Shown: piece by piece, positions 20,932-23,887 of the stretch
How the letters are laid out: the number at the start of each line of letters is the position of its first letter
Position numbering within the stretch: position 1 is the stretch's first letter
From: a virus
Length of the DNA: 23,887 nucleotides
Direction: 5' to 3' (one strand)
IMG/VR virus record: IMGVR_UViG_3300002137_000250
Coordinates: 1-23,887 of that record
Notes under the pieces: model-generated
What the model was told of the DNA's origin: nothing
What the model saw: only the letters and a program-made list of their open reading frames with translations
The model's database searches: none
Translations under genes and position numbers: made by a program

Positions 20932-21663
20932 ATGAAACACCCGCCGCGCAACATAGATCAATCTTGTTTTGATTGGCAAAAAATCATACTTAAAAAAACT
21001 GATATGCCCAGCAACGCTAAGTATTTAGCTTTGTACATGGCTTCATATATGAATATGAACCGTGATGTGGCCTGGCCGAGTCAAAAAACGATTGAAAGAG
21101 AAACGGGATTAGCTCACGCAACCATTCTTAAATGGCTAGATTTTCTAGTTGAGGAAGGCTGGCTAGCCAAGCAATCAGGCTCCAGAATTGAGTCAAATCG
21201 CTATTGGATTTCCTTCCCAAATGAGGTAGGTCAATTACTGACCTACGTCAACCAGCGAGAGGAGGTAGGTCAACCACTGACCTCTAATAACAATACAATA
21301 ACAAATACTATTATAAGAGATAAAAAGTTTAAGCCTCCAACGGTTCAAGAAGTTCAAGAATACTCATCTACTATCGACGCTGAGAGATTCTGTGATTTCT
21401 ATGAATCAAAAGGCTGGATGGTCGGTAAAAACAAGATGAAGGATTTTAAGGCAGCTATTCGCAACTGGGAGAGAAACAATGACAAACGGGACAATCAATC
21501 CAAGGCTGGCGGCAATACAGGACAGCCTGAGAGAAAACTTACCCCAGCACAGCGAACCGCTGCTAAACGAAAAGCCCTTGGAGAACGAAACGCATCCAAT
21601 TTGGGAGCTATGGCAACGAATGAACGAGATGTACGGACACCAGTGGGCCTCACAGCAGGGTGA
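20932..21663 (+). CDS. O-like replication initiator / replisome organiser
   Basis: 243 residues. Residues 25-80 form a winged helix-turn-helix (WPSQKTIERETGLAHATILKW) of the kind in phage replisome organisers. Residues 130-182 (FKPPTVQEVQEY to FKAAIRNWERN) resemble their conserved C-terminal part. It would bind the phage origin and recruit the helicase loader. The origin is probably inside the gene (21226-21340). The ribosome site before ATG 20932 is poor; a 6-codon mini-ORF at 20915-20935 overlaps its start as ATGA and may couple its translation. The 3' end overlaps the P-like gene. Confidence 0.82.
   Translation: MKHPPRNIDQSCFDWQKIILKKTDMPSNAKYLALYMASYMNMNRDVAWPSQKTIERETGLAHATILKWLDFLVEEGWLAKQSGSRIESNRYWISFPNEVGQLLTYVNQREEVGQPLTSNNNTITNTIIRDKKFKPPTVQEVQEYSSTIDAERFCDFYESKGWMVGKNKMKDFKAAIRNWERNNDKRDNQSKAGGNTGQPERKLTPAQRTAAKRKALGERNASNLGAMATNERDVRTPVGLTAG
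21226..21340 (+). other. Likely replication origin inside the initiator gene
   Basis: Two palindromic repeats: GTAGGTCA/TGACCTAC (21226-21246) and AGGTCA/TGACCT (21267-21283), with 5-nt centres and a 39-bp period. An A+T-rich stretch follows from 21285 to about 21330. They encode repeated EVGQxLT in the protein. In lambda the O gene likewise holds iterons plus an A+T-rich unwinding region. Origin function is inferred. Confidence 0.55.
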
Positions 21664-21940
21664 TGAGCCTAATGACACATGGGTGAAAGGGTTGGTAGGG
21701 ATCACCCCAATTCAATATGGAGCAGGATTGCGAGCCTTATTAACCCGTAATGACAAGTGGCCTCCTAACCTGGTTGAGTTCCGACAACTTTGTACTGGCT
21801 TCGATCCGGACGCTTGGAGGCACAGGGCTGAGAAAGTAGTTGATACGGGTTACATGCTTGAAGATACGACAAGTAAAGAGAAACGTGTTGCTGACGGTTT
21901 AGCGGCTTTGAAAGCATTGAGATTGGAGGTGGGTTTATGA
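21479..21940 (+). CDS. P-like helicase loader
   Basis: 153 residues. The core, from WELWQRMNEMYGHQW to NLVEFRQLC (about 42-106), resembles phage replication P proteins that bring the host DnaB helicase to the origin; the LTRNDKWPPNLVEF segment is typical. ATG 21479 has GGAGAG 5 nt upstream and lies 185 nt before the end of the O-like gene, in another frame. No DnaB-like gene is in the window, so the host helicase is likely used. It is shorter than lambda P (233 aa). Its stop overlaps the next ATG (ATGA). Confidence 0.78.
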   Translation: MTNGTINPRLAAIQDSLRENLPQHSEPLLNEKPLENETHPIWELWQRMNEMYGHQWASQQGDEPNDTWVKGLVGITPIQYGAGLRALLTRNDKWPPNLVEFRQLCTGFDPDAWRHRAEKVVDTGYMLEDTTSKEKRVADGLAALKALRLEVGL

Positions 21941-21950
21941 GGTGTCAAGG
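21924..21950 (+). repeat. 27-bp direct repeat, copy 1 (left of methyltransferase gene)
   Basis: 25 of 27 bases equal 22608-22634. It spans the last codons of the P-like gene (LEVGL), the ribosome site GGAGGT and the methyltransferase start (MRxQG). See the second copy and the finding on this junction. Confidence 0.9.
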
Positions 21951-22569
21951 TAAACCGCAAGGAATTGAATTACTAAACATGGACTGTATGAAGTACATGA
22001 CAGGTCTTGAGGATAACGCCTTTGAGCTTGCTATTGTTGATCCGCCTTATGGGATAGGTGAGAGTGGAGGGAGCCAGCGAACAAGAGGGAGCAAGCGAAC
22101 CAATGGAGTCAAAAAAGAATGGGACAACGAGAGGCCAAACCTGCAGTATTTTCAAGAGCTGCAGCGGGTAAGTGTGAATCAAATTATATGGGGCGGGAAT
22201 TACTTTGCTGACTTATTGCCTGCTTCGAGATGTTGGATATATTGGCAGAAGGATATGGGCGGGGACTTTTCTGATGGTGAGCTTGCTTACACGAGCTTTG
22301 ACAGGGTGCTAAAGCAGTTCAGGAAAAGAAGCGAGAGCCACCATCGAATACACCCCACACAAAAGCCCGTAAAACTTTACGAATGGCTGCTGACCAACTA
22401 CGCCAAAGAGGGCGACAGAATCCTCGACACCCATCTTGGCAGTGGCTCTAGTGCAATAGCAGCACACTACGCAGGCTTTGAGTTTGTAGGGACTGAGCTA
22501 GACCCTGACTACTTCAAGGCAGCACAAGAGCGATTTAACAATGAAACCAAACAGCAGGCAATGTTTTAG
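21937..22569 (+). CDS. DNA N6-adenine / N4-cytosine methyltransferase, beta class
   Basis: 210 residues. Motif order DPPY (35-38), then HPTQKP (139-144), then LDTHLGSGSSAIA (163-175, SAM site) is that of beta-class N6/N4 methyltransferases (N6_N4_Mtase). No matching restriction enzyme is nearby, so it is an orphan phage enzyme, most likely masking sites from host restriction or marking DNA. The GGAGGT ribosome site overlaps the P-like stop. It is bracketed by a 27-bp direct repeat. Target base and sequence cannot be read from the protein. Confidence 0.88.
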   Translation: MRCQGKPQGIELLNMDCMKYMTGLEDNAFELAIVDPPYGIGESGGSQRTRGSKRTNGVKKEWDNERPNLQYFQELQRVSVNQIIWGGNYFADLLPASRCWIYWQKDMGGDFSDGELAYTSFDRVLKQFRKRSESHHRIHPTQKPVKLYEWLLTNYAKEGDRILDTHLGSGSSAIAAHYAGFEFVGTELDPDYFKAAQERFNNETKQQAMF

Positions 22570-22597
22570 CCTTATTAGACTAACTGTGGAGAATTAT

Positions 22598-22624
22598 ATG
22601 ATAAAGCTGGAGGTAGGTTTATGA
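22598..22624 (+). other. 8-codon mini-ORF, remnant of a gene end
   Basis: ATG 22598 to TGA 22624, MIKLEVGL, with GGAG 6 nt upstream; it overlaps the next start as ATGA. LEVGL equals the end of the P-like protein, so this is probably a fossil copy of that gene's 3' end and may now couple translation of the next gene. Confidence 0.55.
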
Positions 22625-22634
22625 GGGGTCAAGG
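22608..22634 (+). repeat. 27-bp direct repeat, copy 2 (right of methyltransferase gene)
   Basis: Matches 21924-21950 except at two positions (G/A and T/G). It covers the mini-ORF end, the GGAGGT ribosome site and the first codons of the wHTH gene (MRGQG versus MRCQG). Confidence 0.9.
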
Positions 22635-22950
22635 CAGAAAGGGTGAAGCACAAGAACAGCGCGATAAGATCATGGCGATGTCAGAATTTATGTCTGGCGA
22701 GGAGTTTACTCAAAGTCAGGTGTGTACCCGGCTAGCCATTAAGGTATCTACCGCCAGCATTAGACTGAGGGAGTTACATCAAGATGGTTTAGTCGCTCGA
22801 AAAGAGTATCCGTCAGAAAATTCCAAGTCTGGAGTCTCTGTCCGATGGGTGAAGCGCAGGAGTACGCAAGCGTATTTATCGAAATCGTGGCGGAAGATAA
22901 CCAACGAGAAGCTGGGCATCTTCCCTAAACGGCTAGGGTCTTACGCATAA
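22621..22950 (+). CDS. Winged-helix DNA-binding protein
   Basis: 109 residues. A winged-helix pattern is seen in FTQSQVCTRLAIKVSTASIRLRELHQDGLVARKEYP (about residues 29-64; part quoted as motif only), with S-x-R-L-R-E-L in the recognition helix, followed by a basic C-terminal tail. Phages often carry such proteins in the early right operon; the job is likely regulatory. The start has GGAGGT upstream and MRGQG at the N-terminus, duplicated from or to the methyltransferase start. Target unknown. Confidence 0.78.
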   Translation: MRGQGRKGEAQEQRDKIMAMSEFMSGEEFTQSQVCTRLAIKVSTASIRLRELHQDGLVARKEYPSENSKSGVSVRWVKRRSTQAYLSKSWRKITNEKLGIFPKRLGSYA

Positions 22951-22963
22951 TTAGGGGGTTACA

Positions 22964-23215
22964 ATGATTATCATCCGCAGAGTGAGCCAAAAGCAGATGC
23001 TACAGGCTAAGAGACTGTACTGGGCCGGCAGGACTTATGCCCAAATCGGTAAAGTGATGGGGGTTCACCCTCAACGGGCTAACAAATATCTACGAATTCT
23101 GGATTTATATGGCATCGAATCGTTCCCAACTGCAACTCAAGCACAAATCAGAAGACACACTAGGCAAGCGGCCAAGGCATTACGCGATGCAGATACTAGC
23201 CCTGAAGGGCCATAG
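22964..23215 (+). CDS. Small helix-turn-helix protein
   Basis: 83 residues with a GGGGG run 7-11 nt before the ATG. AGRTYAQIGKVMGVHPQRANKYL is a clear helix-turn-helix of the type also seen in sigma-like and transposase DNA-binding parts; the rest is helical, with a basic stretch (QIRRHTRQAAKALRD). Possibly a regulator of the downstream early genes. No exact family recognised. Confidence 0.75.
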   Translation: MIIIRRVSQKQMLQAKRLYWAGRTYAQIGKVMGVHPQRANKYLRILDLYGIESFPTATQAQIRRHTRQAAKALRDADTSPEGP

Positions 23216-23315
23216 GAACGCCAGAGAGCGCACTGGTGAGATTTTAGCGTCTGCCCCGCCCCATTGGGTAAGTTTAATTAAAAGCCACGTCCGGCTATTG
23301 TGGGAGCAAGCATGA
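23187..23315 (+). CDS. Small basic protein, unknown
   Basis: 42 residues from ATG 23187, overlapping the HTH gene by 29 nt; AAGG lies about 10 nt upstream. ILALKGHRNARERTGEILAS and APPHWVSLIKSHVRLLWEQ look like a short helical protein of phage nin-type regions, recalled only loosely. The stop overlaps the next start (ATGA), supporting a real gene. A longer in-frame start at 23109 would overlap the HTH gene by 107 nt and is less likely. Confidence 0.5.
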   Translation: MQILALKGHRNARERTGEILASAPPHWVSLIKSHVRLLWEQA

Positions 23316-23629
23316 GCAATCCGAAAACAGACAGGCAAAGGAACGCTATCCACCTATGGTTTGACCAGGTGGCTAAAACCTTGAATGATTCGAGTATTGA
23401 CAAAGTTGTTGTGATCGAGGCACTAAACACTAGGGGGCTGGATATGCAGTGGACAGGGGAATCGTTCAAATCGGATGTTTATAAACCTATCTACCAAAAA
23501 GTCACAGCTCAAGAGTCTACAGAGGAGGCCAGCACAACAGATCACGATATTTGTTATCACGGGCTGGTTAAGTATTTTGGTCAGGAATTTGGGGTTCAGT
23601 TACCGCCCTGGCCCTCGAATGAAGGATAG
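23312..23629 (+). CDS. Conserved phage protein of unknown function
   Basis: 105 residues from ATG 23312 with GGGAG 6-10 nt upstream; a GTG at 23300 is possible. KTDRQRNAIHLWFDQVAKTLN near the start, a central QWTGESFKSDVYKPIYQKVT and the end FGVQLPPWPS are typical of a phage family that sits in late-early (nin-like) regions; its role is not known to me. The gene is packed against neighbours, consistent with the same operon. Confidence 0.75.
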   Translation: MSNPKTDRQRNAIHLWFDQVAKTLNDSSIDKVVVIEALNTRGLDMQWTGESFKSDVYKPIYQKVTAQESTEEASTTDHDICYHGLVKYFGQEFGVQLPPWPSNEG

Positions 23630-23637
23630 GAGCAACT

Positions 23638-23887
23638 ATGTGGATAATCCCCAACAATCACTCACTACACTCTCGCTTTGCACAGGATACGGTGGAATCG
23701 AAAGAGGACTTGAGCTTGCTGGAGAGCAGCTTAACGTCCTCGCTCATGTGGAGATCGAAGCCTTCGCCGCTGCGAACCTGGTCGCAAAGATGGAGCAGGG
23801 AAAGCTGGCTCCGTCACCTATTTGGACGAACCTTAAAACACTCCCAGTGGAGCCTTTTCGAGGCCGAGTTGACCTCCTTACTGGCGG
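23638..23887 (+). other. Second open frame over the C5 methyltransferase start
   Basis: ATG 23638, two bases before the methyltransferase GTG and sharing its AGGAG site (5 nt away), opens 83 codons with no stop to the window edge, rich in Trp, Ser and Arg (MWIIPNNHSLHSRFAQ; MWRSKPSPLRTWSQRW). It may be a dual-coded protein or chance. Confidence 0.3.
23640..23887 (+). CDS. C5-cytosine DNA methyltransferase (5' part, cut by window end)
   Basis: GTG 23640, 7 nt after AGGAG (23628-23632), gives MDNPQQSLTTLS then LCTGYGGIERGLELAG, the SAM-binding motif I of C5 cytosine methyltransferases, and later VDLLTGG, which comes right before the catalytic Pro-Cys motif that lies beyond the window. It would methylate cytosine in phage DNA at an unknown site. 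With the N6/N4 enzyme at 21937 the phage has two orphan DNA methyltransferases. An ATG two bases upstream belongs to another frame. Confidence 0.85.
   Translation, partial: MDNPQQSLTTLSLCTGYGGIERGLELAGEQLNVLAHVEIEAFAAANLVAKMEQGKLAPSPIWTNLKTLPVEPFRGRVDLLTG

Follow-up and report, generated by a model that had tools for sequence, protein, structure and literature searches.

Genes in phages lie close together, with overlaps of stop and start codons, and a standing question on mosaic genomes is how a gene can enter without breaking its neighbors. The sequence analyzed here, a virus record of 23,887 bases in IMG/VR (IMGVR_UViG_3300002137_000250, termed the window), retains evidence that bears on this question. 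A DNA methyltransferase gene in the window lies between two copies of a 27-bp sequence, each of which holds the end of one reading frame and the start of the next. Did the methyltransferase enter at the joint of two overlapping genes, and was that joint copied to both sides of it? The window and its relatives are metagenomic fragments.

The repeat copies and the genes they join

The P-like helicase-loader gene (positions 21479–21940, plus strand) shows a match to PHROG 109 (E-value = 1.7e-9). Its last codons, LEVGL and stop, contain the ribosome site for the gene that follows, whose ATG overlaps this TGA. The next open reading frame (21937–22569, plus strand) has a chain length of 210 aa and encodes a predicted enzyme, a beta-class N6/N4 DNA methyltransferase with matches to PF01555 (E-value = 9.8e-18) and PHROG 67. 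It carries the DPPY and LGSGS sequence motifs, and its C-terminal part is similar to CcrM, DpnA, MboIIA and RsrI (PDB matches). A small winged-helix (wHTH) gene follows at 22621–22950 (plus strand). It displays a sub-threshold match to MarR_2, and a tblastn search of phage records with its protein yielded no matches.

Copy A of the repeat, TGGAGGTGGGTTTATGAGGTGTCAAGG, is at positions 21924–21950 and copy B, TGGAGGTAGGTTTATGAGGGGTCAAGG, at 22608–22634, both on the plus strand; 25 of the 27 positions are identical. Each copy displays the elements that had been listed in the earlier note, i.e. LEVGL with a stop codon, GGAGGT, an ATGA overlap and an MRxQG start. The GGAGGT sequences of the two copies are equal and strong, with an anti-Shine-Dalgarno pairing energy of −10.6 kcal/mol. 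The segment between the copies is 657 bp (21951–22607, plus strand). The 8-codon mini-open reading frame said to end in the right copy is also present: ATG ATA AAG CTG GAG GTA GGT TTA TGA (22598–22624), translated as MIKLEVGL and stop. Its tail is formed by copy B, and it has a GGAG ribosome site of its own at 22588–22591, the whole element spanning 22588–22624 on the plus strand.

A search of the window with the 27-mer, allowing up to 3 mismatches, gave these two matches and no third site, and 100 dinucleotide shuffles gave none. The 18-mer core, GGAGGTNGGTTTATGAGG, is found at two sites only in the window. When the 36 gene starts of the window (630 pairs) were aligned at the start codon, the copy A/copy B pair agreed at 25/27 positions and the runner-up pair at 17/27, and the top pair score stayed at 21 or below in 3000 shuffles made within start-site columns so as to preserve the composition of each. 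Thus the repeat, confirmed by direct alignment, by both kinds of shuffle and by the start-pair comparison, is real; it is neither a product of chance nor a general ribosome-site element of the phage, the outcome that the earlier note had named as speaking against its own proposal. An Rfam scan for structured RNA gave no match.

The arrangement is found in a second, near-identical contig, IMGVR_UViG_3300002132_000186 (L002/L083), the only contig detected when IMG/VR was searched with a 26-bp pattern. This contig begins 52 bp before copy A, has the same 684-bp spacing and keeps the mini-open reading frame. The presence of the same structure in a second contig shows that the arrangement is not a single-contig assembly error. 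Copy A of this contig is GGAGGTAGG, and its two repeat copies agree at 26/27 positions. Alignment with window positions 21872–23839 displays a single difference in 1968 bp, at 21931 (position 60 of L083); this is inside copy A, and the second contig carries here the base of copy B. The lone difference may hint that the repeats have exchanged sequence, or it may be due to chance (about 1.4% for copy A). Window positions 23840–23887, compared with positions 1969–2016 of L083, show 10 differences in these last 48 bases, which are inside a C5-methyltransferase gene. So abrupt a change after nearly 2 kb of identity resembles the edge of a recombined segment or an effect of the contig end.

Native and borrowed halves, and relatives that lack the methyltransferase

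In about 80 homologues, the protein begins at a point equivalent to residue 9–12 of the window methyltransferase (MIELLNMDCMEYM and similar). Among them, the head MRCQGKPQ is found in the window methyltransferase only, and it mirrors the start of the wHTH sequence, MRGQGRKG. On this comparison, the MRCQG start is not the methyltransferase's own. The MRGQG start is taken as native to the wHTH gene, which has no close relative, by parsimony only.

No close relative of the P-like protein was found by direct search, nor by a P alignment search in bacterial genomes. At several loci (L125, L165/L166 and L167) a P-like gene runs via ATGA into another small gene. The P sequence of L167 ends with KLRESVGL and stop, overlapping at ATGA, and this supports a native origin in P for the LxxVGL end of copy A. 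Read from their sequences, copy A consists of the native P end, GGAGGT, ATGA and a borrowed wHTH-like start (MRCQG), and copy B of an orphan P end, GGAGGT, ATGA and the native wHTH start (MRGQG).

Two relatives, L084 and L085, display a joint of P with a wHTH-type gene and no methyltransferase. In L084 (identity with the window: HTH39 65%, O 70%, P 37%), P overlaps the wHTH-type gene directly via ATGA, and a relative of the window gene at 23312 (40%) comes next. In L085 (O 58%, P 49%), P leads directly to the wHTH-type gene via TAATG. The small post-P genes of L084 and L085 are weakly similar to the window wHTH protein (pairwise E-values 2e-5 and 9e-4), and their position and overlap agree with those of the window gene. 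A methyltransferase of the window's family is absent from both records, which are fragments. The records containing L084 and L085 gave no match to the major capsid protein of the window; thus these share the replication region with the window, not demonstrably the whole genome.

The earlier note had supposed that the P-like gene once ran directly into the wHTH gene, and had proposed a comparison with relatives lacking the methyltransferase. The predicted overlap of P with a wHTH-type gene is seen in L084 and L085, which supports the supposition at the level of protein and synteny, the two loci being too diverged for a repeat comparison at the DNA level. No close strain with just one copy of the 27-bp joint was found at the DNA level, and among relatives that lack the gene even the nearest are distant (P 37%–49%). 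The foreign head and the relatives without the methyltransferase point to the methyltransferase as the newcomer. Very probably it was inserted at the P/wHTH joint, with the joint copied to both sides. To look for a donor, the 20 bp that follow the methyltransferase were used as a query, and they matched only unrelated coding DNA (L174/L175).

The O-like gene of the window has a repeat of a different type. Two 22-bp copies of GAGGTAGGTCAAyyACTGACCT (20/22 identical) are at positions 21223–21244 and 21262–21283, 39 bp apart, and a similar 22-bp pair is at the equivalent place in the O gene of L084. These pairs resemble replication-origin iterons.

A proposed course of events and its alternatives

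In the proposed ancestor, the stop codon of the P-like helicase-loader gene would overlap the start of the wHTH gene (LEVGL TGA / ATG AGG), with the wHTH ribosome site inside the end of P. A methyltransferase segment of ~657 bp would have entered this joint, most likely by illegitimate recombination, after which the joint would be present on both sides. The left copy would keep the end of P and supply the methyltransferase with a ribosome site and its first five codons (MRCQG). In the right copy the wHTH gene would keep its own ribosome site and start, and the P end would remain there as the tail of the 8-codon mini-open reading frame.

An insertion before the stop codon would truncate P, one after the start codon would break the wHTH gene, and one between stop and start would part the wHTH gene from its ribosome site. 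Since this site is inside P, an insertion that spares its neighbors must duplicate the stop codon, the ribosome site and the start codon together. Only joint-duplicating insertions would spare both genes, and thus selection on the outcome would explain the duplication, whatever the joining reaction. From this anatomy, the duplication can be read as what selection lets survive. A joint with the ribosome site inside the upstream gene would be enterable only by duplication, and this would leave a footprint that is searchable in any phage genome.

Ribosomes that finish P are likely to re-initiate on the methyltransferase; translation of the wHTH gene is likely to start either in the same way, behind the mini-open reading frame, or from the gene's own GGAGGT. 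The near-identical copies could allow loss or exchange of the gene by homologous recombination. We infer the recombination mechanism, the translational coupling and this reversibility.

The order of arrival is not readable from the repeat alone, which is itself symmetrical. The wHTH gene might then be the newcomer, with P-methyltransferase as the older order and the wHTH start copied from the P/methyltransferase joint, but the relatives show P followed by a wHTH-type gene with no methyltransferase, and the methyltransferase family otherwise lacks the MRCQG head; this explanation is very unlikely. Another explanation is homologous allele exchange, by which the whole cassette (P, joint, methyltransferase, joint, wHTH), or the methyltransferase alone, would have come from a phage with already duplicated joints, the duplication predating the lineage. 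Exchange of a methyltransferase at one joint via a shared fossil start is displayed by L058 and L179 (see below), and over 1968 bp the window and L083 differ at a single base, which is in copy A and in L083 is the same as in copy B. However, a second phage family with the same joint was not found, and this explanation shifts the original event elsewhere and offers no replacement for it. We consider it rather unlikely.

A gene between direct repeats of its target is also the formal signature of a transposon-like insertion, here with a true 27-bp target-site duplication produced by a mobility enzyme. Terminal inverted repeats were looked for at the ends of the insert and none were found, on which ground a transposon or insertion sequence was rejected. 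There is no mobility gene among the listed open reading frames of the insert, 27 bp is long for a transposase, and the repeat lengths at other loci range from 15 to 32 and beyond, all of which makes such an event highly improbable. Lastly, two ribosome sites might become alike through the same selection, and both copies do have a strong Shine-Dalgarno sequence. But the similarity is limited to 2 of the 36 starts, with the next pair and the 3000 shuffles falling well short as given above, and the identity extends from the P codons through five codons past the start. For the window, the start-pair comparison and the shuffles refute convergence, whose probability is negligible.

Known systems and similar arrangements at other loci

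Insertion of the methyltransferase at the P/wHTH joint, the preferred reading, has known counterparts in gene gain with boundary repeats and in the long target duplication of restriction-modification (R-M) genes. Gene 68 of mycobacteriophage Island3 is an extra gene between ~50–60-bp direct repeats of the upstream gene's end, a sequence that is single in Brujita (PMC3029335). Like it, the window displays an extra phage gene that is bracketed by a gene-boundary repeat and is absent in relatives with conserved flanks. The Island3 repeat consists of the upstream gene's 3′ end, whereas the window repeat spans the stop codon, the ribosome site and the next start; it supplies the N-terminus of the newcomer, and a mini-open reading frame is left behind. 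The single-copy state is known at the DNA level for Island3/Brujita, and as gene order only for the window relatives.

Insertion of R-M genes in bacteria with long target duplication is attributed to Nobusato (2000) as cited in PMC1643837 and PMC3031569, and six type II systems of H. pylori have direct repeats on their two sides, with a single copy in strains that lack the system (PMC10423294). The window resembles these in having a DNA-modification gene between direct repeats of the target, with possible loss by recombination. Its gene encodes a modification enzyme (PF01555), and its repeats (25/27 bp, 26/27 in L083) are longer than the usual transposon target duplication. The R-M insertions are in bacterial chromosomes and are mostly complete R-M systems, whereas the window has a solitary phage methyltransferase, and its duplicated target is the stop/start joint of two overlapping genes.

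The Start-Associated Sequences (SAS) of Cluster K mycobacteriophages are a conserved 13-bp repeat that overlaps the ribosome site at many genes (PMC3203893). The window repeat also overlaps a ribosome site, but it has two copies only, flanking one gene, and with no further match in the window and the next start pair at 17/27, identity with the SAS was rejected. A moron (as defined in PMC3029335) is likewise a single added gene whose two neighbors adjoin each other in relatives. The window insert differs in having no terminator (0 terminator-like sites) and promoter-like matches at chance level (1 around the extra gene vs 1.0 expected), and a moron with its own promoter and terminator was rejected. 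The expression of the window methyltransferase appears to rely on the translation signals of the operon.

The stop/ribosome-site/start content of the repeat, the fossil mini-open reading frame with an orphan start, and the recurrence around methyltransferases are new. Arbiol is said to have described mobile regulatory cassettes of T4 in 2010.

Homologous methyltransferase loci were scanned for sequences shared by the start and the end of a gene. In L054 (3900–4660), the upstream gene ends with DERA and stop, overlapping the next gene's start MSELDDFF, and the repeat is 25/26 bp. The L054 methyltransferase also ends with DERA and stop, copied from the end of the upstream gene, and a fossil of the downstream start, MSELDDFFVFKLI followed by a stop codon, precedes the methyltransferase. 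L021 has a 20/20 repeat across stop and start, and L038 a 16/17 repeat. L202, in a Kushneria genome, has a 15/15 repeat (GGAGGTGCCGCATGA); the upstream gene ends SVGGAA and the methyltransferase FAGGAA, each before its stop codon. L192 displays an AT-rich 27/27 stop-to-start repeat around a Dam-type gene, and L214 a 30/32 repeat of low complexity around a chromosomal methyltransferase. In L007/L008 the upstream gene's end recurs 1355 bp downstream, past two tandem methyltransferases. The half-native/half-orphan topology recurs in L054, L021, L192, L202, L007/L008 and L038. No empty sites for L192, L202 and L007 were found among the collected loci. L005 and L044 (tandem methyltransferase paralogues) and L163 (zinc-ribbon paralogues) were set aside, the repeats there having a different cause.

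A related series is found at the terminase TerS/TerL joint. L046, L077 and L080 have the order TerS-MT-TerL and L180/L181 the order TerS-Dam-TerL, all with stop/start overlaps. L058 displays TerS-MT, a 26-bp fossil of the TerL start, and then Dam-TerL; L179 has a C5 methyltransferase after TerS, followed by the same 26-bp fossil and Dam-TerL. The first 200 residues of TerL, compared with L058, are 92%–99% identical in L046, L179, L180 and L181, 90% in L080 and 77% in L077. With TerL sequences this similar, gain and exchange of methyltransferases at one joint are visible among close relatives. The series is related to the window case but not identical with it: the repeat is the TerL start only, without a preceding gene end.

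An enrichment count was made on non-redundant loci with mechanical gene calls, leaving out the window and tandem paralogues. A start/end repeat score of at least 15, a threshold set after seeing the examples, was found for 7 of 141 methyltransferase genes and 4 of 990 others (Fisher one-sided p = 9e-5). For genes with same-strand neighbors on both sides the figures are 5/81 and 2/575 (p = 4e-4, with the same post hoc threshold). A methyltransferase search in bacterial phyla gave few further loci, and an added small set of 39 loci gave 1/27 methyltransferases (AT-rich) vs 0/59 others (p = 0.31). Individual cases, which come from several unrelated phages, are good evidence that the pattern recurs; its enrichment at methyltransferases, being post hoc, is a lead. 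As to the ribosome-site-based route of gene uptake by phages that the earlier note had suggested, similar cases around other phage methyltransferases speak for it, but the evidence is in part post hoc.

It is quite possible, and is proposed here tentatively, that several phage methyltransferase families repeatedly enter operons at overlapping-gene joints, which persist as duplicated stop/ribosome-site/start modules with fossil gene ends. Such modules would be a reusable and potentially reversible docking structure for gain, loss and swap without a dedicated mobility enzyme. If the footprint holds in a pre-planned survey, it would provide a simple detector of recent gene gains and help to explain the easy gain and loss of methyltransferases in phages.

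Two loci display repeats around genes of other types. In L013 (5482–6130), a gene of 203 aa that carries a PPCQ motif and matches PHROG 12600, a family of unknown function, lies between 23/24-bp direct repeats that hold a stop and a start codon. In L147 (4199–4720), a DUF551-containing gene, which is not a methyltransferase, has two identical 18-bp sequences, one at its start and the other immediately beyond its end.
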